A stretch of DNA of 26,672 bases from a virus: IMG/VR virus record IMGVR_UViG_3300030331_002606, positions 1 to 26,672 of that record. One strand, written 5' to 3'. Of the stretch, positions 1,760-26,672 are shown piece after piece (the first letter of the stretch is position 1; each line of letters opens with the position of its first letter). The position numbers were made by a program, and so were the translations under genes. Below the pieces are notes generated by a model that was not told the origin of the DNA, did no database searches, and worked only from the letters and a program-made list of their open reading frames with translations.

Positions 1760-2263
1760 ATGAAGATTGGATTTAATTGTAGTTCCTTTGATTTGTTTCA
1801 TGCTGGACATGTGACAATGTTGAAGATGGAAAAAGATTTGTGTGATTACTTGATAGTTGCCTTACAAGTGGACCCTACGATTGACAGACCGGGTATCAAG
1901 AACAAACCCATACAGAGTGTGTATGAGAGGTATGTTCAGGTGCAAGGATGTAAATACGTAGATGAGATATTGGTCTATGAAACAGAAGAAGATCTATTGA
2001 ATATGATCAAGACACAGAGAATGGATATTCGTTTCTTAAGTGAGGAGTATGAGAACCGAGACTTTACAGGAAAGCAATATTGTATCGACAATGGTATTGA
2101 AATCCACTATCATAAGAGACAACATAAGTATTCCTCTACAGAGTTGAGAAACAGAGTTCATGATCTTGAAGAACTTAGGAGGACCGAGACATTGATACAG
2201 ACATCAGCTGATCAATACTCACCTGATTTACTACACAAATACGAGGAAACATGTCCATTCTAG
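1760..2263 (+). CDS. TagD/GCT-like cytidylyltransferase
   Basis: This 167-residue nucleotidyltransferase is the first gene of the glycan operon. The N-terminal strand leads into HAGH (His14-His17), the HxGH nucleotide-binding signature of the cytidylyltransferase superfamily. YSSTELR (124-130) matches the ISTT-x-[IL]-x-x-R signature. The body is about 135 residues, as in glycerol-3-phosphate cytidylyltransferase, plus a 35-residue C-terminal extension. It would activate a small phosphorylated compound as its CDP (or ADP) derivative. Glycerol-3-phosphate is the family's best-known substrate, but phosphoethanolamine or other polyol phosphates are possible. It overlaps the next gene by 13 bases. 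Confidence 0.8.
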   Translation: MKIGFNCSSFDLFHAGHVTMLKMEKDLCDYLIVALQVDPTIDRPGIKNKPIQSVYERYVQVQGCKYVDEILVYETEEDLLNMIKTQRMDIRFLSEEYENRDFTGKQYCIDNGIEIHYHKRQHKYSSTELRNRVHDLEELRRTETLIQTSADQYSPDLLHKYEETCPF

Positions 2264-3174
2264 TCACAGGGGGAGCTGGGTTTATTGGAAGTCAATTACT
2301 CAGATCTCTGAACAAGTTTGGTGAGAGATTGGTGGTTGCCGATAAGATATCTTATGCAGGTAAGAAATCAAATCTACCTGAAAATATTGAATTTTACAAA
2401 ATAGATATCGCAAGTGATGATGCAGTCAGGTATTTGTTTGAACAAGAGACATTTGATACTGTCTTTCATCTGGCAGCAGAGAGTCATGTAGATAATTCAA
2501 TCAAAAATCCTAAACCATTTATTGATACTAATGTTATTGGTACGGTCAATCTTCTACAAGCATCATTAGAACATGAAGTAGATCGTTTTATGCATATCTC
2601 TACAGATGAGGTATTTGGATCTATTGACTTTAAAGATGGATCATTTAATGAAGAGTCAAGGTATCAACCTAGAAATCCCTACTCTGCATCCAAGGCAGCC
2701 AGTGATCATTTTGTAAACTCATATAATATCACCTACGGTCTTCCTACTACCATCACGAACTGTTCAAACAACTATGGACCCCGACAGGATGATGAAAAGA
2801 TGATTCCTACAATCATCAGGAATATTAAGAATGGCACACCTATCCCTGTTTATGGTGATGGACAACAGGTGAGAGATTGGATCTATGTTGAAGATCATTG
2901 TGACGCTTTGATTGAGCTATGGATTAATGGTAAGGTTGGAGAGAGGTATAATATTGGTGGAGAATGTGAACTAAAGAACATCGATCTTGTCAAGATGATT
3001 TGTAAATTGATGAGTAGGGAGGATCATCATATAGAACATGTTACTGATAGACCCGGACACGATCTAAGATACTCTACCTCCAATAAAAAAATAACCACAG
3101 AAACAAAGTGGTCTGTTTCTACTGACATCACAACAGGACTCCTTAACACAATTCTCTACTATGAAGATAATTAA
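2251..3174 (+). CDS. rmlB: dTDP-glucose 4,6-dehydratase (RmlB-like)
   Basis: This 307-residue extended SDR dehydrates an NDP-glucose to NDP-4-keto-6-deoxyglucose. Visible features are the NAD-binding GGAGFIG (7-13), the catalytic triad block STDEVFG with Thr118-Asp119-Glu120, and Tyr144/Lys148 in YSASK. The Asp-Glu pair after Thr is diagnostic of 4,6-dehydratases rather than epimerases. It is about 40 residues shorter than bacterial RmlB. An AGGAAA ribosome-binding site lies within the preceding gene. RmlC follows with an overlap of 14 bases, supporting a dTDP-6-deoxyhexose role. RmlA and a classical RmlD are absent from the window, so the precursor nucleotide sugar must come from the host or elsewhere. 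Confidence 0.88.
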   Translation: MSILVTGGAGFIGSQLLRSLNKFGERLVVADKISYAGKKSNLPENIEFYKIDIASDDAVRYLFEQETFDTVFHLAAESHVDNSIKNPKPFIDTNVIGTVNLLQASLEHEVDRFMHISTDEVFGSIDFKDGSFNEESRYQPRNPYSASKAASDHFVNSYNITYGLPTTITNCSNNYGPRQDDEKMIPTIIRNIKNGTPIPVYGDGQQVRDWIYVEDHCDALIELWINGKVGERYNIGGECELKNIDLVKMICKLMSREDHHIEHVTDRPGHDLRYSTSNKKITTETKWSVSTDITTGLLNTILYYEDN

Positions 3175-3697
3175 TACACCCCTCTTAGACGCCTTTCTGA
3201 TTGAAGAAAATAGACATGAAGATGATAGGGGTTACTTCATTGAAACCTATAATAAAAAAGAATTCTCCAGTATAGGTCTGAACATGGACTTTGTTCAGGA
3301 TAATCACTCTATGTCATCACCACACGTACTTAGAGGACTTCATTATCAAGTTGAGAAACCACAGGGTAAACTGGTCAGATGTATGAAAGGTTCTATCCTG
3401 GATGTGATTGTTGACCTTAGACAATCATCCCCTACTTTTGGCCAACACCATGCTGTTCATCTCTATCGTCCTGAGGTGATGTTGTGGGTGCCGGAGGGAT
3501 TCGCACATGGATTCTATGTGTATAGTTTACATGCACATGTATCTTACAAGACAACAGAATTTTACTATAAAGAGTATGATAGATCACTCCTATGGAATGA
3601 CCCTGATCTTGGTATTGACTGGGGTATAGAAAGTCCATTCTTATCAGCCAAGGACAAATACGCTAAAACATTTAAAGAGTGTGAAAAGTATGAGTAA
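3161..3697 (+). CDS. rmlC: dTDP-4-keto-6-deoxyglucose 3,5-epimerase (RmlC-like)
   Basis: This 178-residue cupin-fold epimerase has the standard family length. It carries LRGLHYQ with catalytic His61, the DLRQSSPTFGQ strand, WVPEGFAHGF with His116, and the aromatic SYKTTEFYY region that supplies the active-site tyrosine. It converts dTDP-4-keto-6-deoxy-D-glucose to the L-lyxo form, feeding a reductase that finishes L-rhamnose or a relative. It overlaps RmlB by 14 bases and the next SDR by 8. The SDR directly downstream is the natural candidate for the final reductase. Confidence 0.9.
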   Translation: MKIINTPLLDAFLIEENRHEDDRGYFIETYNKKEFSSIGLNMDFVQDNHSMSSPHVLRGLHYQVEKPQGKLVRCMKGSILDVIVDLRQSSPTFGQHHAVHLYRPEVMLWVPEGFAHGFYVYSLHAHVSYKTTEFYYKEYDRSLLWNDPDLGIDWGIESPFLSAKDKYAKTFKECEKYE

Positions 3698-4511
3698 TAT
3701 TTCAGTATTCGGAGCCACTGGTTACATTGGTAGCACATTTATGCGAATGTATCCTAACAATATTCTTGTTCCTAGAGGTGATAGACAACCACAGTCTAAG
3801 GATGTTCTTTACCTGATCAGTACAACTACCAATCAGAATGTCTTCCAAGATTTACAGATTGATATTGACACTAACCTCAAGATCCTAACAGAGGTGTTGT
3901 CACATTGTAAGAGAACAGACACGGTGTTTAACTTTGTCAGTTCAGGTTTTGTATATGGAAATGATTTCTTGGACGCTGAGGAATCTGATAGTTGTAATCC
4001 TACCGGGTTCTACTCTGTTACTAAGAGATGTGCAGAGCAGTTATTAATCTCATACTGTGAGACCTTTGGTATCAAGTATCGTATCTTCCGAGTCAGTAAT
4101 GTATTCGGTATCGACCCGACAGTATCAAAAGGTAAGAATGTGTTGGGGTATATGATCCGTCGTCTGAAGAACAATGAGACCATCTATCTGTATGATGGTG
4201 GTGATTTCGTCAAGGACTACATGTGGGTTGATGATGTCTGTAGGGCAATGAAACTTCTGATGGATGAGTCAGACACTAACCAGATTTATAATGTTGGTAC
4301 AGGTTACTCACGGTCCTTTAGAGAGATCATTGAGTATGCAAAGAAGAAGGTGAAGAGTGACAGCAAGATTGAGTCAGTTCCTATGCCATGGGATCAGAAA
4401 TATCTACAGATCAAAAACTTCACGATGAATGTGGATAAACTTATGTCGTTCGGGTTCGTTCCAGAACTTGACATAGACGCTGGTCTTGATATGATGTGTA
4501 AAGTATATTGA
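3690..4511 (+). CDS. Extended SDR sugar-nucleotide reductase/epimerase
   Basis: This 273-residue NAD(P)-dependent SDR starts at the ATG at 3690, which overlaps the RmlC stop; a GTG at 3681 is possible but less likely. It shows the GATGYIG nucleotide-binding loop (8-14), a serine pair (84-85) and Tyr108/Lys112 in YSVTK. The fingerprint fits NDP-4-keto-sugar reductases or epimerases. Its position right after RmlC suggests it reduces the RmlC product at C4, as RmlD or 6-deoxytalose dehydrogenases do. It is not a close textbook RmlD by eye, so the exact product is open. Confidence 0.75.
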   Translation: MSNISVFGATGYIGSTFMRMYPNNILVPRGDRQPQSKDVLYLISTTTNQNVFQDLQIDIDTNLKILTEVLSHCKRTDTVFNFVSSGFVYGNDFLDAEESDSCNPTGFYSVTKRCAEQLLISYCETFGIKYRIFRVSNVFGIDPTVSKGKNVLGYMIRRLKNNETIYLYDGGDFVKDYMWVDDVCRAMKLLMDESDTNQIYNVGTGYSRSFREIIEYAKKKVKSDSKIESVPMPWDQKYLQIKNFTMNVDKLMSFGFVPELDIDAGLDMMCKVY

Positions 4512-4539
4512 TTCAGCACGGATACATAGTAAGTAATTC

Positions 4540-5616
4540 ATGGATGTTATGACTGAGTATAGTAAGACTGCACTAGTTCTTGGTGCAGGTGGATTCATTG
4601 GTAGTCACATGGTAAAAAGACTACGATCAGAGGGATACTGGGTTCGTGGTGTTGACCTGAAGAGACCTGAGTTCTCTGAAACAGAAGCTAATGAGTTCAT
4701 TCAGGGTGACCTGACTGATCCTTCATTCGTTCGTCGTGTCATTAGATTCAAGGGATATAATGGTAACTTCTTTGCTAGTGTCCCGGATAGATATCATGAA
4801 TCGTTTGATGAGATCTATCAGTTTGCTGCTGACATGGGTGGTGCGGGATTCGTATTCACTGGTGAGAACGATGCAGACATCATGCATAACTCAGTCACTA
4901 TCAATCTAAATGTCCTAGAAGAACAGCGTAAGTTCAACGATGCCAAAGAGGACAACAAGACAAAGATCTTCTACTCTGGTTCGGCATGTATGTATCCCGA
5001 ACACAACCAACTAGACCCTGACAACCCTGACTGCCGTGAAGAATCAGCATATCCCGCAGCCCCAGACTCAGAATATGGATGGGAAAAACTATTCAGTGAG
5101 AGACTATACCGGGCGTACAATCGTAATTATGGGATTCCTGTTCGCATTGCTAGGTATCATAACATATTCGGACCCGAAGGAACCTGGGACGGTGGAAGAG
5201 AAAAGGCTCCGGCTGCAATCTGCCGTAAGGTGGCTAGACTCCCGGAGGTCGGTGGAGGTATCGAAGTGTGGGGAGACGGCTTACAGACTCGTTCCTTCCT
5301 GTTCATTGATGAATGCATTGAAGCAACTAGAAGACTGATGGACTCAGACTTCATGGGACCGGTCAATATTGGTTCTGAGGAGATGGTATCTATCAATCAA
5401 CTGGTAGAGACTGCAGGTAAGGTATCAGGTAAGGTGGTCAGGAAGCTTTACAAACTTGACGCACCTACGGGTGTTCGTGGTCGTAACTCTAATAATGATC
5501 TCATTCGTGAGAAACTTGGTTGGGATTACTCTCAAAGTCTTGAAGAGGGTATCCTTAAAACATACGAATGGATCTGTACACAAATCGCACAGGAAAACAA
5601 TGGGAATCTCGATTGA
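4540..5616 (+). CDS. gme: GDP-mannose 3,5-epimerase
   Basis: This 358-residue SDR closely matches plant and bacterial GDP-mannose 3,5-epimerase. It has GAGGFIG (15-21), AADMGG, the active-site Cys150 in SACMYPE, Tyr179/Lys183 in YGWEK, RYHNIFGPEGTW and REKAPAA with Lys222. The Cys150-Lys222 spacing of 72 equals that of the Arabidopsis catalytic pair as I recall it (Cys145/Lys217). The enzyme converts GDP-D-mannose to GDP-L-galactose and GDP-L-gulose. An alternative start at 4549 is possible. It overlaps the next gene by 17 bases. No fucose-synthesis genes are visible nearby, so L-galactose or L-gulose may be the sugar used by the operon's fucosyltransferase-like enzymes. Confidence 0.9.
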   Translation: MDVMTEYSKTALVLGAGGFIGSHMVKRLRSEGYWVRGVDLKRPEFSETEANEFIQGDLTDPSFVRRVIRFKGYNGNFFASVPDRYHESFDEIYQFAADMGGAGFVFTGENDADIMHNSVTINLNVLEEQRKFNDAKEDNKTKIFYSGSACMYPEHNQLDPDNPDCREESAYPAAPDSEYGWEKLFSERLYRAYNRNYGIPVRIARYHNIFGPEGTWDGGREKAPAAICRKVARLPEVGGGIEVWGDGLQTRSFLFIDECIEATRRLMDSDFMGPVNIGSEEMVSINQLVETAGKVSGKVVRKLYKLDAPTGVRGRNSNNDLIREKLGWDYSQSLEEGILKTYEWICTQIAQENNGNLD

Positions 5617-6313
5617 AGGAATCAAAGAACTGGTAGGTAACCGTGACCAGATCGTTATTTTTGAAGTTGGTTGTGCTGACGGAACTGATACAAAGCAATT
5701 CCTCAGTCAGTTTGGTGACAATCTAAAACTGTATACATTTGATCCTGACCCTACCAACATCAAAGCGATGTCGGCTGAGGGTGGTAAGGATGTAAAGGGT
5801 GTATCTAATCAGGGATTGAGAACTGATAGTCGTCACACATTTACCCCTGCTGCCATGGCTGCACAGGATGGTAAGACCACCTTCACTCGTTCCCGTAACA
5901 CTAACGCACCTGATGGTGGGGTTGACTTCGGTAGATACTCTGGTTCTATCTACGAACCAAAGACGATTATTGATGGTGGACCCCGTGGTAATAGGTGGCC
6001 ATTTATCAAATACGATGAGAAGATTGAGGTTCAAACCAGAAGTCTTGATTCATTCTGTCAGGAGAATGGTATCGATCACATTGACTTCATGTGGATGGAT
6101 GTACAGGGAGCAGAGAAAGAAGTGTTCCTTGGTGCTAAGAACATGATTGGTAAGATTGATTATGTCTATACCGAGTATCATGAAGAGGAGATGTATGAAG
6201 GTGCTACTAACCTTCAGACTGTCACGGATCTTCTACCCGGATATGATATGGCACAGAACTGGCCATACCCTGATGTCATGGGTGGTGACGCATTGTTTAA
6301 ACTGAGAGGTTGA
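5600..6313 (+). CDS. FkbM-type SAM methyltransferase
   Basis: This 237-residue class I methyltransferase starts at the ATG at 5600, preceded by AGGAAA. The longer in-frame extension back to 5456 lies entirely inside the epimerase gene and is rejected. Motif I is FEVGCADGTDT (about 20-30), followed by the acidic strand end FDPDP. HIDFMWMDVQGAE is the FkbM-family motif in which the final Asp and Glu line the active site. FkbM enzymes O-methylate sugar or polyketide hydroxyls, so a sugar O-methylation during glycan assembly is likely. It overlaps the epimerase gene by 17 bases and is followed one base later by a glycosyltransferase. Confidence 0.8.
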   Translation: MGISIEGIKELVGNRDQIVIFEVGCADGTDTKQFLSQFGDNLKLYTFDPDPTNIKAMSAEGGKDVKGVSNQGLRTDSRHTFTPAAMAAQDGKTTFTRSRNTNAPDGGVDFGRYSGSIYEPKTIIDGGPRGNRWPFIKYDEKIEVQTRSLDSFCQENGIDHIDFMWMDVQGAEKEVFLGAKNMIGKIDYVYTEYHEEEMYEGATNLQTVTDLLPGYDMAQNWPYPDVMGGDALFKLRG

Positions 6314-8307: not shown

Positions 8308-9603
8308 ATGTATCAACTCATTGAGAAGTTCATCAGTGATGCTAAAGAGATGGATGACAATGTGTTTCCGTTCTTGGCCAATAAAGATTGGAGGCCTGGT
8401 AAGAATGTCTACTACTCTGGTCCATATTGGGATGATCTAGAGGCACAAGAACTTATCTACGGTGTCATGAAGGGTAAGTGGTTATCCTCTGGTGAGAAAG
8501 TTAATAAATTTGAGAAAGAATTTTCTAAGAGATTCTTGTTTGAACACTCGGTCATGGTGAACTCAGGTTCATCTGCTAATCTGGTGATGATTGCCGCACT
8601 CAAGAAATATTTTCAATGGCAAGACGGTGACGAGATCATCGTTTGTTCTTGTGGATTTGCAACCACCATTGCACCGGTGGTTCAGGCTAACTTGAAACCA
8701 GTATTTGTTGACATCAACTGGCACGACCTGAACTGGGATATGGAACAGGTATTCAAGAAGGTGACACCTAGGACTCGTGCAGTGTTCTCCTCACCTGTCC
8801 TGGGTAATGCATACGACATGGACAGACTGGTAAAGTTCTGTAAGGCAAAGAATATTCACCTTATCTCTGACAACTGTGACAGTCTGGGTAGTAAGTATAA
8901 GGGTGAGTATCTTACCAAACATGCTGTGGCTGCATCATGTTCTTTCTATCCTGCTCACCATATCTGCACTATCGAAGGTGGTATGGTGTCATCTAATGTC
9001 AAGGCAATCGTAGACTTGGCTCGGAGTTTTGCGTGGTGGGGTCGTGGTTGTTACTGTGTAGGACAACAGAACCTATTGACTAATGGTGTCTGTGGTCGTC
9101 GTTTTGACAAGTGGTTGGACGGATATGATGACATTGTGGATCATAAGTATGTGTTCGGTCAGATGGGATACAATCTCAAACCACTAGACATGCAGGGTGC
9201 AGTTGGTTCAGTTCAACTCCTGAAGTTTGATGAGATCCACAGACTGAGAAGAAAGAATAAGGAAAGTATTCAGAATATCATTGAGACAATCCCTGGTTGT
9301 AGAGTTGTTAGAGAAAGAGAAGACAGTGAGACTAGTTGGTTTGGTGTCCCGATTGTGTGTGAAGAGTCCAAAACCAAACATGCTTTGGTTGCACACTTAG
9401 AGAAGAACAAGATTCAAACTAGAAACTACTTTGCTGGTAACATTCTTCTACACCCTGGTTACTGTCATCTTGACGATGCCAAGAAGTATCCTGAAGCCAA
9501 TAAGGTTCTTAACAATGTGTTCTTCCTGGGTTGTTCTCCTGTCATTACTGATGATATGATTGGATATATTGGAGAGGTAGTGGAGGAATTTAGAAATGCT
9601 TGA
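8308..9603 (+). CDS. E1-type [2Fe-2S] PMP-dependent sugar 3-dehydrase (RfbH/DdhC-like)
   Basis: This 431-residue DegT/DnrJ-fold enzyme is not an aminotransferase. The Schiff-base lysine of the family is replaced by His217 in SFYPAHH. Cys190, Cys248, Cys250 and Cys262 form C-X57-C-X1-C-X11-C, matching the iron-sulfur motif of Yersinia E1 (C-X57-C-X1-C-X7-C as I recall) except for a four-residue longer last gap. His217 lies 27 residues after Cys190, as His220 does after Cys193 in E1. Such enzymes remove the C3 hydroxyl of a 4-keto-6-deoxyhexose using PMP and electrons from a reductase or ferredoxin, giving 3,6-dideoxyhexoses. No dedicated reductase gene is visible here. Confidence 0.9.
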   Translation: MYQLIEKFISDAKEMDDNVFPFLANKDWRPGKNVYYSGPYWDDLEAQELIYGVMKGKWLSSGEKVNKFEKEFSKRFLFEHSVMVNSGSSANLVMIAALKKYFQWQDGDEIIVCSCGFATTIAPVVQANLKPVFVDINWHDLNWDMEQVFKKVTPRTRAVFSSPVLGNAYDMDRLVKFCKAKNIHLISDNCDSLGSKYKGEYLTKHAVAASCSFYPAHHICTIEGGMVSSNVKAIVDLARSFAWWGRGCYCVGQQNLLTNGVCGRRFDKWLDGYDDIVDHKYVFGQMGYNLKPLDMQGAVGSVQLLKFDEIHRLRRKNKESIQNIIETIPGCRVVREREDSETSWFGVPIVCEESKTKHALVAHLEKNKIQTRNYFAGNILLHPGYCHLDDAKKYPEANKVLNNVFFLGCSPVITDDMIGYIGEVVEEFRNA

Positions 9604-10300
9604 TCTGAATAGGGTCACATGTTTTGCTATCGACAATACAAAAACTATTGACGATACTATCAGAGCCTTGTATACATGTATGGATGTTGCCAATTTCCAT
9701 CAGGTAAAACTGGTAACATCATCAGAGTTTGTTGAGAAGTATTCTGATGAACTCAAAGAAGATGGTATCATCGTAGAAGAGAGTTGTGTCCCTGTCACGA
9801 CAAGAGAGGAGTATGGTAAGTTTCTACTTCAAGAACAGTATAGGCATATCGAATCAGAATTCTGTTTGTCAATTCAGAGTCACGCATTCATTATAAATCC
9901 TAGTGCATGGATGGATGAATACTACGAATACGATTATATTGGTGCCCCTTGGCCAATCCGAGATAGGGGTTACATCTCACCATACGGAGAACACATTAGA
10001 GTTGGTAATGGTGGGTTCTCACTTAAGTCAAAGAAACTTATGGAACTACCGAGTAAGGTAGATATTCCTTTCCCTATCACTGATGATAGTGGGTTCTATA
10101 AAACATTTGGCTTCTACGATACACATGAAGATGGTAATATCTGTGTTCATAATCGTCACATCTATGAAGAACATGGATGTAAAATCGCTCCCATTGAAAT
10201 TGCAAAATATTTTTCATATGAGGCACCAGTTCCAGAAAACGATGGTATAATCCCATTCGGATATCATTATCATCTACCACCTGGTATATCCATCGAATAA
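9596..10300 (+). CDS. DUF5672-type putative glycosyltransferase
   Basis: This 234-residue protein matches the DUF5672 pattern. It has a region ending in SHAFIINPSAW, then YEYDYIGAPWP and the glycine-rich VGNGGFSLKSKKLM, which is the family's most conserved block, and then a His-containing segment (THEDGNICVHN). The family is associated with glycosylation loci and is thought to be GT-A-like, but its reaction is not established. It overlaps the dehydrase gene by 8 bases, with GGAGGAA as ribosome-binding site. Its stop is followed by a short 17-base gap. Confidence 0.75.
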   Translation: MLDLNRVTCFAIDNTKTIDDTIRALYTCMDVANFHQVKLVTSSEFVEKYSDELKEDGIIVEESCVPVTTREEYGKFLLQEQYRHIESEFCLSIQSHAFIINPSAWMDEYYEYDYIGAPWPIRDRGYISPYGEHIRVGNGGFSLKSKKLMELPSKVDIPFPITDDSGFYKTFGFYDTHEDGNICVHNRHIYEEHGCKIAPIEIAKYFSYEAPVPENDGIIPFGYHYHLPPGISIE

Positions 10301-15686: not shown

Positions 15687-16489
15687 TCGACCTTAGTAAT
15701 GCGACATTCATCATTCCGATCAGGATTGAATCGGATGATAGATTGAGGAATGTAATTACAACTACATCTTATCTCCTTGAAAACTTTGATACTAATATTA
15801 TTATCAAGGAAGTGGATAAGACATCTAGATTTGTTAGTGACGCACTTCCGGTATTGAAGAACATTCTTTCAGTTCCAGTCAAAGTCAAACATATCTTTGA
15901 AGAAAGTAATGCTCCTCTGTTTCATAGACAGAGAGTATTGAATGAAATGATCCATGAGGCAGACACTGATATTGTTGTCAACTATGATTGTGATGCGATA
16001 CTTCCTATTGATTCGATGAAGGAAGCATATGACATGATCATGGATGGTCGTTACGATGTTGTCTACCCCTATGGATGGGGTAACTATCAGTATCAAGTTA
16101 AACCATCTGATGATGTAGTCTCTGACTTTCTTGAGAACTATGACTATGCCATCCTCAAATCAAACTCCAAAATCTATGACGCACAGTCGGGGTGGGTGCA
16201 GTTCTTCAAACGATCCGTCTACATTGAAGGTGGTATGGAGAATGAAAACTTCAAGGCATATGCACCTGAGGATAAGGAAAGACTATACAGATATCAAAAG
16301 TTAGGATATAATGTCGGACGAATATCTAATTTCATCTATCATCTTGAACATGCTCGTGGTGAGAACTCATGGTTCACCAATCCACATATGCAATCTAATA
16401 ATGATCTATGGGAGGAGATACAGAGAATGACAAAAGAACAACTTATTGAATATTACTCTAATCAAAGTTACTTACAGAAATACCTATGA
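15683..16489 (+). CDS. GT-A glycosyltransferase, galactosyltransferase-like
   Basis: This 268-residue protein starts at the ATG at 15683 in an ATGA overlap; a TTG 18 bases upstream is not needed. It begins with a GT-A strand (ATFIIPIRI) and has a DxD-type VNYDCDAI near residue 107. The acceptor region FKAYAPEDKERLYRYQKLGY resembles the galactosyltransferase C-terminal domain (the G-x-x-D/E-D segment). It likely transfers galactose or GalNAc from UDP. The UDP-hexose epimerase directly upstream supports this. It is followed by talC, again coupled by ATGA. Confidence 0.75.
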   Translation: MIDLSNATFIIPIRIESDDRLRNVITTTSYLLENFDTNIIIKEVDKTSRFVSDALPVLKNILSVPVKVKHIFEESNAPLFHRQRVLNEMIHEADTDIVVNYDCDAILPIDSMKEAYDMIMDGRYDVVYPYGWGNYQYQVKPSDDVVSDFLENYDYAILKSNSKIYDAQSGWVQFFKRSVYIEGGMENENFKAYAPEDKERLYRYQKLGYNVGRISNFIYHLEHARGENSWFTNPHMQSNNDLWEEIQRMTKEQLIEYYSNQSYLQKYL

Positions 16490-17163
16490 AACTTTTTCTA
16501 GACACAGCTGATAATGCTGAGGTAGCACGTCACTTCGGTACAGGTCTGATTGACGGTGTGACAACTAATCCTACTCTTATCATGAAGAGTGGTCGTAAAC
16601 CACAGGATGTATATCGTGAACTGATGTTGATGGGTGTCAAAGATATCTCCATGGAGATTGTGGGAGAAGCACCCTACATCGTAGCTGAGGCACATAACCT
16701 GGTAGAAGAGTTTGGAGAAGTATGTACTATTAAAGTACCTTGTACTCGCGAAGGTTTACTTGCATGTCGTGAACTTTCAAAAGAGAATATCCGTGTCAAC
16801 GTGACTCTTATCTTTAGTGCCGCACAAGCAATTCTTGCTGCCAAGTCTGGAGCTTACTATGTTTCGCCGTTCGTTGGAAGATTGGATGATCAAAGTGTCG
16901 CGGGTCTTGAAGTGGTACGTTCTATCGTGGAGCTGTATCGTATTCATGGCATTCGTACTAGAGTACTCTCTGCCTCAATAAGATCTGTACAAAGAGTCGT
17001 AAGATCATTCTATAATGGTGCTGACATTGTGACCATGCCTCCTTCTATCTTTGAGAAGATGTATGATCATGTTCTTACCCGTGAAGGTATCAAACAATTT
17101 GATACTGACTGGGCAACGTTTAACGAAGAGATTCCCGTAGTTCCCTCAGTTCCTGCCGTATGA
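16486..17163 (+). CDS. talC: Transaldolase, TalC/FSA type
   Basis: This 225-residue enzyme belongs to the short TalC/fructose-6-phosphate-aldolase type carried by many cyanophages. Visible features are MKLFLDTAD at the N-terminus, TTNPTLI and the Schiff-base Lys83 in CTIKVP, then NVTLIFSAAQA and YVSPFVGRLDD. It interconverts sedoheptulose-7-P plus glyceraldehyde-3-P with erythrose-4-P plus fructose-6-P in the pentose phosphate pathway. In cyanophages it is regarded as an auxiliary metabolic gene that redirects carbon to NADPH and ribose. Here it is ATGA-coupled inside the glycan operon, so it may also raise fructose-6-P for GDP-mannose. Confidence 0.95.
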   Translation: MKLFLDTADNAEVARHFGTGLIDGVTTNPTLIMKSGRKPQDVYRELMLMGVKDISMEIVGEAPYIVAEAHNLVEEFGEVCTIKVPCTREGLLACRELSKENIRVNVTLIFSAAQAILAAKSGAYYVSPFVGRLDDQSVAGLEVVRSIVELYRIHGIRTRVLSASIRSVQRVVRSFYNGADIVTMPPSIFEKMYDHVLTREGIKQFDTDWATFNEEIPVVPSVPAV

Positions 17164-20574: not shown

Positions 20575-20793
20575 GTGACTGTTAGTTCTAATGATCAAGG
20601 GCAACAAAACATGTGGGCAAAAGAGCCCAGAATGTATATTGATCCCGTTGCTGCCCAACGTTATGGTTACGAAACACATAACGAAAAAGCTGAGAAACTG
20701 AATGGCCGTGTAGCCATGTTGGGTTTCGTCGCTGGACTCCTTTCTTACGTAACTTCTGGAAGTTTGTTCTTCTTTGGTTTGTTTGGGATCTGA
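20575..20793 (+). CDS. hli: High-light-inducible protein (Hli)
   Basis: This 72-residue protein starts at GTG 20575 with AGGAG eight bases upstream. The signature E-K-L-N-G-R-V-A-M-L-G-F (about 40-51) is the chlorophyll-binding half-motif of the LHC/Hlip family, inside the single transmembrane helix. It would bind pigment in the thylakoid and protect photosystem II during infection. The N-terminal 35 residues include a PRMYIDPVAA stretch seen in cyanobacterial and phage Hlips. It is the first and longest of three Hlips here. Confidence 0.95.
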   Translation: MTVSSNDQGQQNMWAKEPRMYIDPVAAQRYGYETHNEKAEKLNGRVAMLGFVAGLLSYVTSGSLFFFGLFGI

Positions 20794-20799
20794 AACAAC

Positions 20800-20827
20800 T
20801 TGACAATCCTAGGTAAAAATATACAAT
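20800..20827 (+). promoter_or_regulatory. Sigma70-type promoter
   Basis: TTGACA (20800-20805), 16-base spacer, TACAAT (20822-20827). It precedes the small gene at 20866 and the two short hli genes. GGGAGAGAG (about 20848-20856) may act as ribosome-binding site. Confidence 0.7.
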
Positions 20828-20865
20828 ATAGAGGTGTATTTTTCCAAGGGAGAGAGTTTGTATAA

Positions 20866-21036
20866 ATGCCAAACCCAAACCAACTCTATGAAGACATGGA
20901 GAGACTGAATGCCCTGTATCAAGAACTCTGTTGGGGGCACGATGATGAATTAGTATTCACTCACGAAAATGGCAGAGTAGTAATTTACAACAACACTTTG
21001 GAGAAAAACAATGAACGAAAGAGCAGAACGCATTAA
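20866..21036 (+). CDS. Small soluble protein between hli genes
   Basis: This 56-residue protein starts MPNPNQLYEDMERL and contains an aromatic/acidic core (ELCWGHDDELVFTHENGRVVIYNN). It overlaps the next hli gene (21011) by 26 bases. It is hydrophilic with no membrane segment. I recall similar short proteins in cyanobacteria and cyanophages, but no function is established. Its own sigma70-type promoter and purine-rich ribosome-binding site support expression. Confidence 0.7.
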   Translation: MPNPNQLYEDMERLNALYQELCWGHDDELVFTHENGRVVIYNNTLEKNNERKSRTH

Positions 21037-21954: not shown

Positions 21955-22278
21955 ATGAGATTTCTTTTTGCGATCCTGGCTACACTCTTCTTTGCCTTTC
22001 CTGCTTGGGCTGTAGATGTTAAGATGGGTTCAAACGGTAACCTAGTTTTTGATCCATCTGACATCACTATTGAAGTGGGTGAAACACTTCACTTTGTGAA
22101 CGGTATGCTTCCACCTCACAATATTATTGTTGAGGGAAGAGCTGATCTGTCAAGAGAATCCCTTATGTTCAATCCTGGTGAGGTTCAAGATATCAAATTT
22201 TCAGACGCAGGAGATTATGATTTCTTCTGTGGTCCTCATCAAGGTGCAGGAATGATTGGACGAATTCACGTCAAGTGA
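21955..22278 (+). CDS. petE: Plastocyanin
   Basis: This 107-residue blue-copper protein has a signal peptide (MRFLFAILATLFFAFPAWA, cut near residue 19) for export to the thylakoid lumen. Type 1 copper ligands are His55 (PPHN), Cys92, His95 and Met100 in CGPHQGAGM. It carries electrons from cytochrome b6f to photosystem I. Phage petE is known in cyanophages and is thought to support electron flow, including cyclic flow, during infection. The mature protein is somewhat short, about 88 residues, compared with about 98 in hosts. Confidence 0.95.
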   Translation: MRFLFAILATLFFAFPAWAVDVKMGSNGNLVFDPSDITIEVGETLHFVNGMLPPHNIIVEGRADLSRESLMFNPGEVQDIKFSDAGDYDFFCGPHQGAGMIGRIHVK

Positions 22279-26381: not shown

Positions 26382-26672
26382 ATGGCTACTTCAACTCTTA
26401 CAAGGTCCCGCCAATCGGGCTGGGATAACTTTACAGAGTGGGTAACATCAACCAACAACCGTCTCTATGTCGGTTGGTTCGGTACCCTGATGATCCCTAC
26501 TCTTCTGGCTGCAACCACCTGTTTCATTGTTGCCTTCATCGCTGCTCCCCCTGTGGACATCGACGGCATCCGTGAGCCTGTCGCTGGTTCGCTCCTGTAT
26601 GGCAACAACATCATTTCTGGTGCTGTTGTTCCTAGCTCCAATGCAATCGGACTTCACTTCTATCCCATCTGG
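26382..26672 (+). CDS. psbA: Photosystem II D1 protein (5' part, cut by window edge)
   Basis: The first 97 codons of psbA are visible ([20 protein letters not shown] start). The first transmembrane helix includes [20 protein letters not shown], followed by the lumenal [20 protein letters not shown]1 is the fast-turnover reaction-centre protein of photosystem II; phage copies replace photodamaged host D1 during infection. The codon choice is visibly GC-richer than in the glycan operon. No intron is seen in the part shown. Confidence 0.98.

Follow-up and report, generated by a model that had tools for sequence, protein, structure and literature searches.

This locus raises the question of whether a viral glycan operon encodes an iron-sulfur sugar 3-dehydrase and, if it does, which nucleotide sugar and which source of electrons such an enzyme would use. 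The gene concerned (positions 8308-9603, plus strand; a single ORF with an ATG start, encoding 431 aa) is located within a 26,672-nucleotide stretch of viral DNA, referred to below as the window. Since the genes for plastocyanin (21955-22278) and the start of psbA/D1 (26382-26672) lie downstream of the glycan operon, the window is confirmed to be of cyanophage origin. The operon also contains a transaldolase gene, talC (16486-17163), placed between genes for a glycosyltransferase and an epimerase, and this order is the same in the Synechococcus phages S-H68, S-B43, S-B05, RB11-B and RN05-S. These five phages encode a protein 86% identical to the 8308-9603 product within a similar operon but, unlike the window at the matching site, they also carry petF.

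Family assignment and active-site residues

The 8308-9603 product has the DegT/DnrJ/EryC1/StrS fold. Its nearest PDB sequence is the Yersinia E1 enzyme (3bcx; 33% identity over the full length, phmmer 4.8e-63), with ColD ranking second. The AlphaFold2 model of the product (mean pLDDT of 92.5) also had 3bcx as its top Foldseek match (TM of 0.85); the least confident part of this model is the loop comprising residues 250-265, with a pLDDT of about 62-69. Among the protein family models, the best was NCBIfam RfbH (NF011936), with a score of 350.3 bits, which is below the 423-bit equivalog cut-off.

The preliminary description had reported a histidine in place of the PLP lysine of aminotransferases and a C-X57-C-X1-C-X11-C arrangement of cysteines, and both are present as stated. 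The histidine is His217 (codon 8956-8958, plus strand). The cysteines, which are putative ligands 1 to 4 of an iron-sulfur cluster, are Cys190 (8875-8877, plus strand), Cys248 and Cys250 (the Cys-Tyr-Cys codons 9049-9057, plus strand) and Cys262 (9091-9093, plus strand), the last of which follows an 11-residue loop within the low-confidence part of the model. When aligned with the E1 enzyme of Y. pseudotuberculosis (3bcx), the product has His217 opposite the active-site histidine and its four cysteines opposite the four of E1. The X57 and X1 spacings and the position of the histidine, 27 residues past the first cysteine, agree with those of E1, as had been proposed, and the final gap, X7 in E1, is X11 in the phage protein and so four residues longer.

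One scan of viral contigs revealed 193 related stretches. All five residues (C190, H217, C248, C250 and C262) are retained without exception by the 77 other full-length relatives from phages and by 79 of 79 relatives from bacteria. Some of the patterns used in the scans for relatives contained these motifs (WWGRGCYC, one of six; SFYPAHH and WGRxCxC), and the constancy of H217, C248 and C250 therefore reflects in part how the relatives were selected; C190 and C262 formed part of no search pattern. The dN/dS ratio of the gene was 0.06-0.09 in comparison with three phage relatives, at dS values close to saturation. This ratio and the invariance across both sets of relatives argue that the five-residue signature did not arise by chance.

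Two of the five residues do not discriminate between enzyme classes. C190 and the histidine also occur in ColD (GDP-4-keto-6-deoxymannose 3-dehydratase, 2gms) and in ColD-like proteins of the cyanophages S-CAM7 and ACG-2014f, which have a related fold, and the diagnostic residues are therefore C248, C250 and C262. These three are missing, as is the cluster, from ColD and its cyanophage relatives, and all three are present in the 8308-9603 product. A ColD-like reaction would hydrolyse the intermediate, regenerate PMP with glutamate and require no electrons, with the cysteines being structural or binding a non-redox metal. The shared C190 and histidine and the lack of a reductase in the operon are compatible with such an enzyme, but the invariance of the three diagnostic cysteines and the phylogenetic tree, which places the product with E1, make it improbable.

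The proteins of S-CAM7 (L085:7953-9086) and ACG-2014f (L086:5917-7110) are annotated as CDP-4-keto-6-deoxy-D-glucose-3-dehydrase or aminotransferase. The S-CAM7 gene follows genes for a GDP-mannose 4,6-dehydratase and a GDP-fucose-synthase-like protein. This context and the missing cysteines suggest that both proteins are ColD-like, of a colitose-type pathway, and that the CDP-based name is probably wrong.

The view that the 8308-9603 product is a sugar aminotransferase despite its motif has in its favour the overall fold and the finding that SpnQ, a 3-dehydratase of the spinosyn pathway, transaminates when reductase is absent (PMC8987622). Close homologues with a lysine at position 217, which would have spoken for this activity, were found in none of the 156 relatives (77 phage and 79 bacterial), and we regard an aminotransferase as very improbable. 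The assignment of the product as an E1-type (RfbH/AscC) 3-dehydrase, as first proposed, is supported by the top sequence and fold matches and the signature residues, and the ORF lies, as also proposed, inside a cyanophage glycan operon.

Four further cysteines of the product (C113, C115, C351 and C409) are also invariant in the phage clade (79 of 79 rows) and are mostly not retained in the bacterial relatives with the X7 gap. C113 and C115 lie in the strand preceding the GFATT motif.

The X11 clade

The four-residue extension of the last cysteine gap had been described as unusual. It is indeed rare among the bacterial relatives, where X11 was found in 8 of 79 and X7 in the other 71, but it is present in all 77 full-length phage relatives and is a trait of their clade. 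In the tree, the E1-like proteins form two groups: (i) the canonical X7 enzymes of bacteria, including Yersinia E1, and (ii) a clade (support 100/96) comprising all of the phage proteins and eight bacterial ones, in which X11 is universal wherever the loop could be aligned. The bacterial members originate from a member of the Nitrosomonadaceae, two Prochlorococcus single cells, two Bacteriovoracales, and one representative each of the Rhodospirillales, Polyangiaceae and Nitrospirales. About 36 positions set this group apart from the X7 enzymes, e.g. DWGRDC is replaced by WWGRGC and AHTLGN by SPVLGN. The difference is also visible in the NF011936 scores, which were 354-373 bits for four bacterial X11 members, 443 bits for the basal member L094 and 679-765 bits for X7 members; most X11 members are below the RfbH equivalog cut-off, which counts against the reading favoured here.

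The view that X11 is a peculiarity of phages was rejected, as bacteria also carry it, including the RfbH of Rhizobacter (L105:9947-11296). This protein has an X11 loop (LLENG), yet it scores above the RfbH cut-off and groups with the X7 enzymes, branching basally on their side of the tree on a long branch. Its loop suggests that X11 may be the older state; the gap is a normal, and possibly ancestral, condition of its clade.

Among 300 Prochlorococcus-family genomes, four carry the X11 type, at 62-66% identity. In the tree, sequences from hosts and from phages are intermingled, a pattern suggestive of exchange between them. Besides its X11 gene, the huge uncultured phage LR756502 (L084) carries a second E1-like copy (about 4458-5700; 28% identical), which lies some 7.5 kb further upstream.

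The kind of enzyme is already known in viruses. The homologs in the five Synechococcus phages bear the name CDP-4-dehydro-6-deoxy-D-glucose 3-dehydratase (that of S-H68), aminotransferase or hypothetical protein, and published lists of marine and Sargassum viral genes include rfbH/ascC (PMC10653327, PMC11295528). What is new, judging from the sequence comparisons, is the separate X11 clade with its SDR partner and dTDP context, for which we found no paper in searches of an open-access subset of the literature.

Nucleotide sugar and the SDR partner

Most knowledge of 3,6-dideoxyhexoses comes from the O-antigens of enterobacteria. The gene 8308-9603 had been linked to this family of sugars with either a dTDP- or a CDP-sugar as the substrate; the E1 type is compatible with the first part of this proposal, and the gene context makes the CDP alternative less likely. 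Two genes on the plus strand encode enzymes of dTDP-sugar synthesis: (i) RmlB, a dTDP-glucose 4,6-dehydratase (2251-3174; TIGR01181, 388.6 bits, cut-off 365.1), the predicted maker of the presumed substrate, which scores only 82.5 bits with the CDP-glucose 4,6-dehydratase model, and (ii) RmlC, a dTDP-4-dehydrorhamnose 3,5-epimerase (3161-3697; TIGR01221, 224 bits, cut-off 155.75), which may set the L configuration. Genes for glucose-1-phosphate cytidylyltransferase (RfbF) and/or CDP-glucose 4,6-dehydratase (RfbG), which belong to the CDP-3,6-dideoxyhexose route to ascarylose, paratose or abequose, accompany the E1 gene in 59 of 72 canonical X7 loci, with examples confirmed by curated models, and in none of 82 phage loci. 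RmlB (>40% identity) is encoded in 30 of the 51 phage loci with sufficient flanking sequence, versus 0 of 42 X7 loci, and RmlA and RmlB genes adjoin the E1/SDR module in L091, L093 and L095. All seven X11-bearing genomes tested contain RmlB, and three of them also have a CDP-glucose 4,6-dehydratase above the cut-off, which counts against a dTDP substrate. The lack of CDP-sugar genes in the phage loci and the frequency of RmlB nevertheless point to dTDP-4-keto-6-deoxyglucose as the likely substrate, and we favour it over a CDP sugar.

An enzyme of the canonical type would be a CDP-4-keto-6-deoxyglucose 3-dehydrase (AscC/DdhC-like), fed by CDP-sugar enzymes and a reductase of the host. Its fold and residues would be the same as those observed, the name under which the S-H68 protein was deposited implies it, and the three X11 genomes mentioned above encode a CDP-glucose 4,6-dehydratase. 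The missing RfbF and RfbG, the RmlB gene of the operon and the well-supported separation from the X7 enzymes argue against it, and we consider this reading unlikely.

The preliminary description of the enzyme context can be extended by a conserved partner that it had not singled out. This is a short-chain dehydrogenase (SDR) of about 272 aa (3681-4511, plus strand), putatively an NAD(P)H-dependent 4-ketoreductase or an epimerase of a 3,6-dideoxy-4-keto sugar. Among the 75 phage E1 loci whose upstream sequence exceeds 1 kb, 72 encode a homolog, and the three exceptions (L002, L003 and L007) are contigs that start about 2-3 kb upstream of the E1 gene. The SDR was also found in 8 of 8 bacterial X11 loci (the match in L094 being weak, 31%), versus 2 of 67 X7 loci (Fisher p of about 5e-34, uncorrected for relatedness). 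Two of the four picocyanobacterial X11 loci have no adjacent SDR gene, which weighs against the favoured reading.

In 55 loci, the SDR gene immediately precedes the E1 gene, in most cases with an overlap of a few bases between the two ORFs. In another 29, arranged as in the window, it usually follows RmlC (directly so in most), and the E1 gene lies 3.7-8.5 kb downstream. The loci L088-L090 of Prochlorococcus and Nitrosomonadaceae contain the SDR/E1 pair without the remainder of the phage operon. The correlation of E1 and SDR tree distances was rejected as proof of linkage, since it is unspecific and is also observed with other genes of the operon.

The SDR motifs (GxxGxxG, Ser and Tyr-x3-Lys) are invariant in 81 of 81 sequences. 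Sequence profiles and a fold search pointed to no specific SDR family or reaction; an NADPH-dependent 4-ketoreductase (RMD) was among many SDRs matched. Reduction of the 4-ketone is the most likely role of this protein. Directly 3′ of the E1 gene in 56 phage loci is a gene for a DUF5672 protein (PF18922), glycosyltransferase-like and a possible acceptor-side partner, which in the window (9596-10300, plus strand) overlaps the E1 stop codon. The E1/SDR pair probably produces an uncommon deoxy-sugar that would go into a surface glycan.

The phage enzyme may thus be compared with two known systems. It shares with E1 (AscC/DdhC/RfbH; CDP-6-deoxy-L-threo-D-glycero-4-hexulose-3-dehydrase, 3bcx/3bb8) the fold, the PMP-enzyme histidine and the four cysteines in order, with X57 and X1, and differs in the X11 gap, in WWGR and SPVLGN in place of DWGR and AHTLGN, in its dTDP rather than CDP gene context, in its SDR partner and in the lack of E3. 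SpnQ (dTDP-4-keto-2,6-dideoxyglucose 3-dehydratase), which we compared by its description, would be similar in its dTDP substrate class and [2Fe-2S] cluster, but it belongs to an antibiotic pathway, where its substrate is a 2,6-dideoxy sugar. The wide occurrence of this E1 branch in marine cyanophages, in a dTDP context and with a fixed partner, suggests that the public CDP-based names are wrong.

Electron donor

By analogy with E1 and SpnQ, a PMP Schiff base would form with the 4-keto-6-deoxyhexose, His217 would abstract the C4′ proton of PMP with departure of the C3 hydroxyl, and a [2Fe-2S] cluster held by Cys190, Cys248, Cys250 and Cys262 would feed single electrons into the glucoseen-PMP adduct, reducing it. 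The substrate would most likely be dTDP-4-keto-6-deoxyglucose, the RmlB product, perhaps after epimerisation by RmlC. The SDR would most likely then reduce the 4-ketone to give a dTDP-3,6-dideoxyhexose, which may be used by the glycosyltransferases of the same operon. The donor would be reduced ferredoxin, that of the host or, in relatives carrying petF, PetF. We consider this reading as a whole, i.e. an E1-type [2Fe-2S] 3-dehydratase using the dTDP sugar, with 4-ketone reduction by the SDR and ferredoxin as the donor, to be somewhat more probable than not.

A domain search agreed with the earlier statement that the window encodes no E3-type reductase. No FNR/E3-type domain (NAD_binding_1) above the cut-off was found in 40 phage records either, including four near-complete E1-bearing genomes of >200 kb (S-B43, S-B05, RB11-B and RN05-S). 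An E3-like gene is nearby in only about 5 of 72 canonical bacterial loci, so its absence is not telling by itself, and we rejected it as proof of a ferredoxin donor.

Each of the five named phages encodes one short plant-type [2Fe-2S] ferredoxin, whose gene is located, in four of them, about 12 kb downstream of the E1 gene on the same strand. However, petF is widespread among cyanophages as a whole (44 of 153 genomes in one survey, PMC10452541; 279 phage records in this analysis), which makes its co-occurrence with the E1 gene weak evidence. It is also missing at the matching site of the window, and phage petF was therefore rejected as proof of the donor.

SpnQ, a dTDP-sugar 3-dehydratase with a cluster, has been reported to run on ferredoxin or flavodoxin with their reductases instead of E3 (PMC8987622), and reduced ferredoxin would be a plausible donor for the phage enzyme and the simplest one. 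The same enzyme could also be served by another host donor, either a flavodoxin or a reductase that uses NAD(P)H. The use of flavodoxin by SpnQ, the Fer2-FNR protein encoded in the Nitrosomonadaceae genome that carries the E1/SDR module and the missing petF of the window phage are all consistent with such a donor. Against it, a screen for Fer2 in two Prochlorococcus genomes revealed only short ferredoxins and no Fer2-FNR fusion. Three of the four Prochlorococcus-family X11 genomes encode a single ferredoxin:NADP reductase (FNR) without a ferredoxin domain, and none was found in the fourth, a partial genome. A donor other than ferredoxin seems to us rather unlikely.

Should ferredoxin prove to be the donor, glycan synthesis in infected cells would be tied to photosynthetic electron flow, which would suggest one use for phage petF. 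As a tentative and somewhat doubtful extension, the X11 enzymes may constitute a dTDP-specific E1 subfamily that, with its dedicated SDR, moves between Prochlorococcus and phages and takes electrons directly from ferredoxin reduced by photosystem I, so that infected cells would make a 3,6-dideoxy sugar with light-derived electrons.

The petF gene is absent from the interval 20793-20866 of the window, between two conserved collinear blocks. The absence is clean in comparison with L082:26945-27547, where S-H68 and its relatives carry petF between collinear flanks. The window and L082 thus form a natural comparison of the presence and absence of petF beside the same glycan operon.
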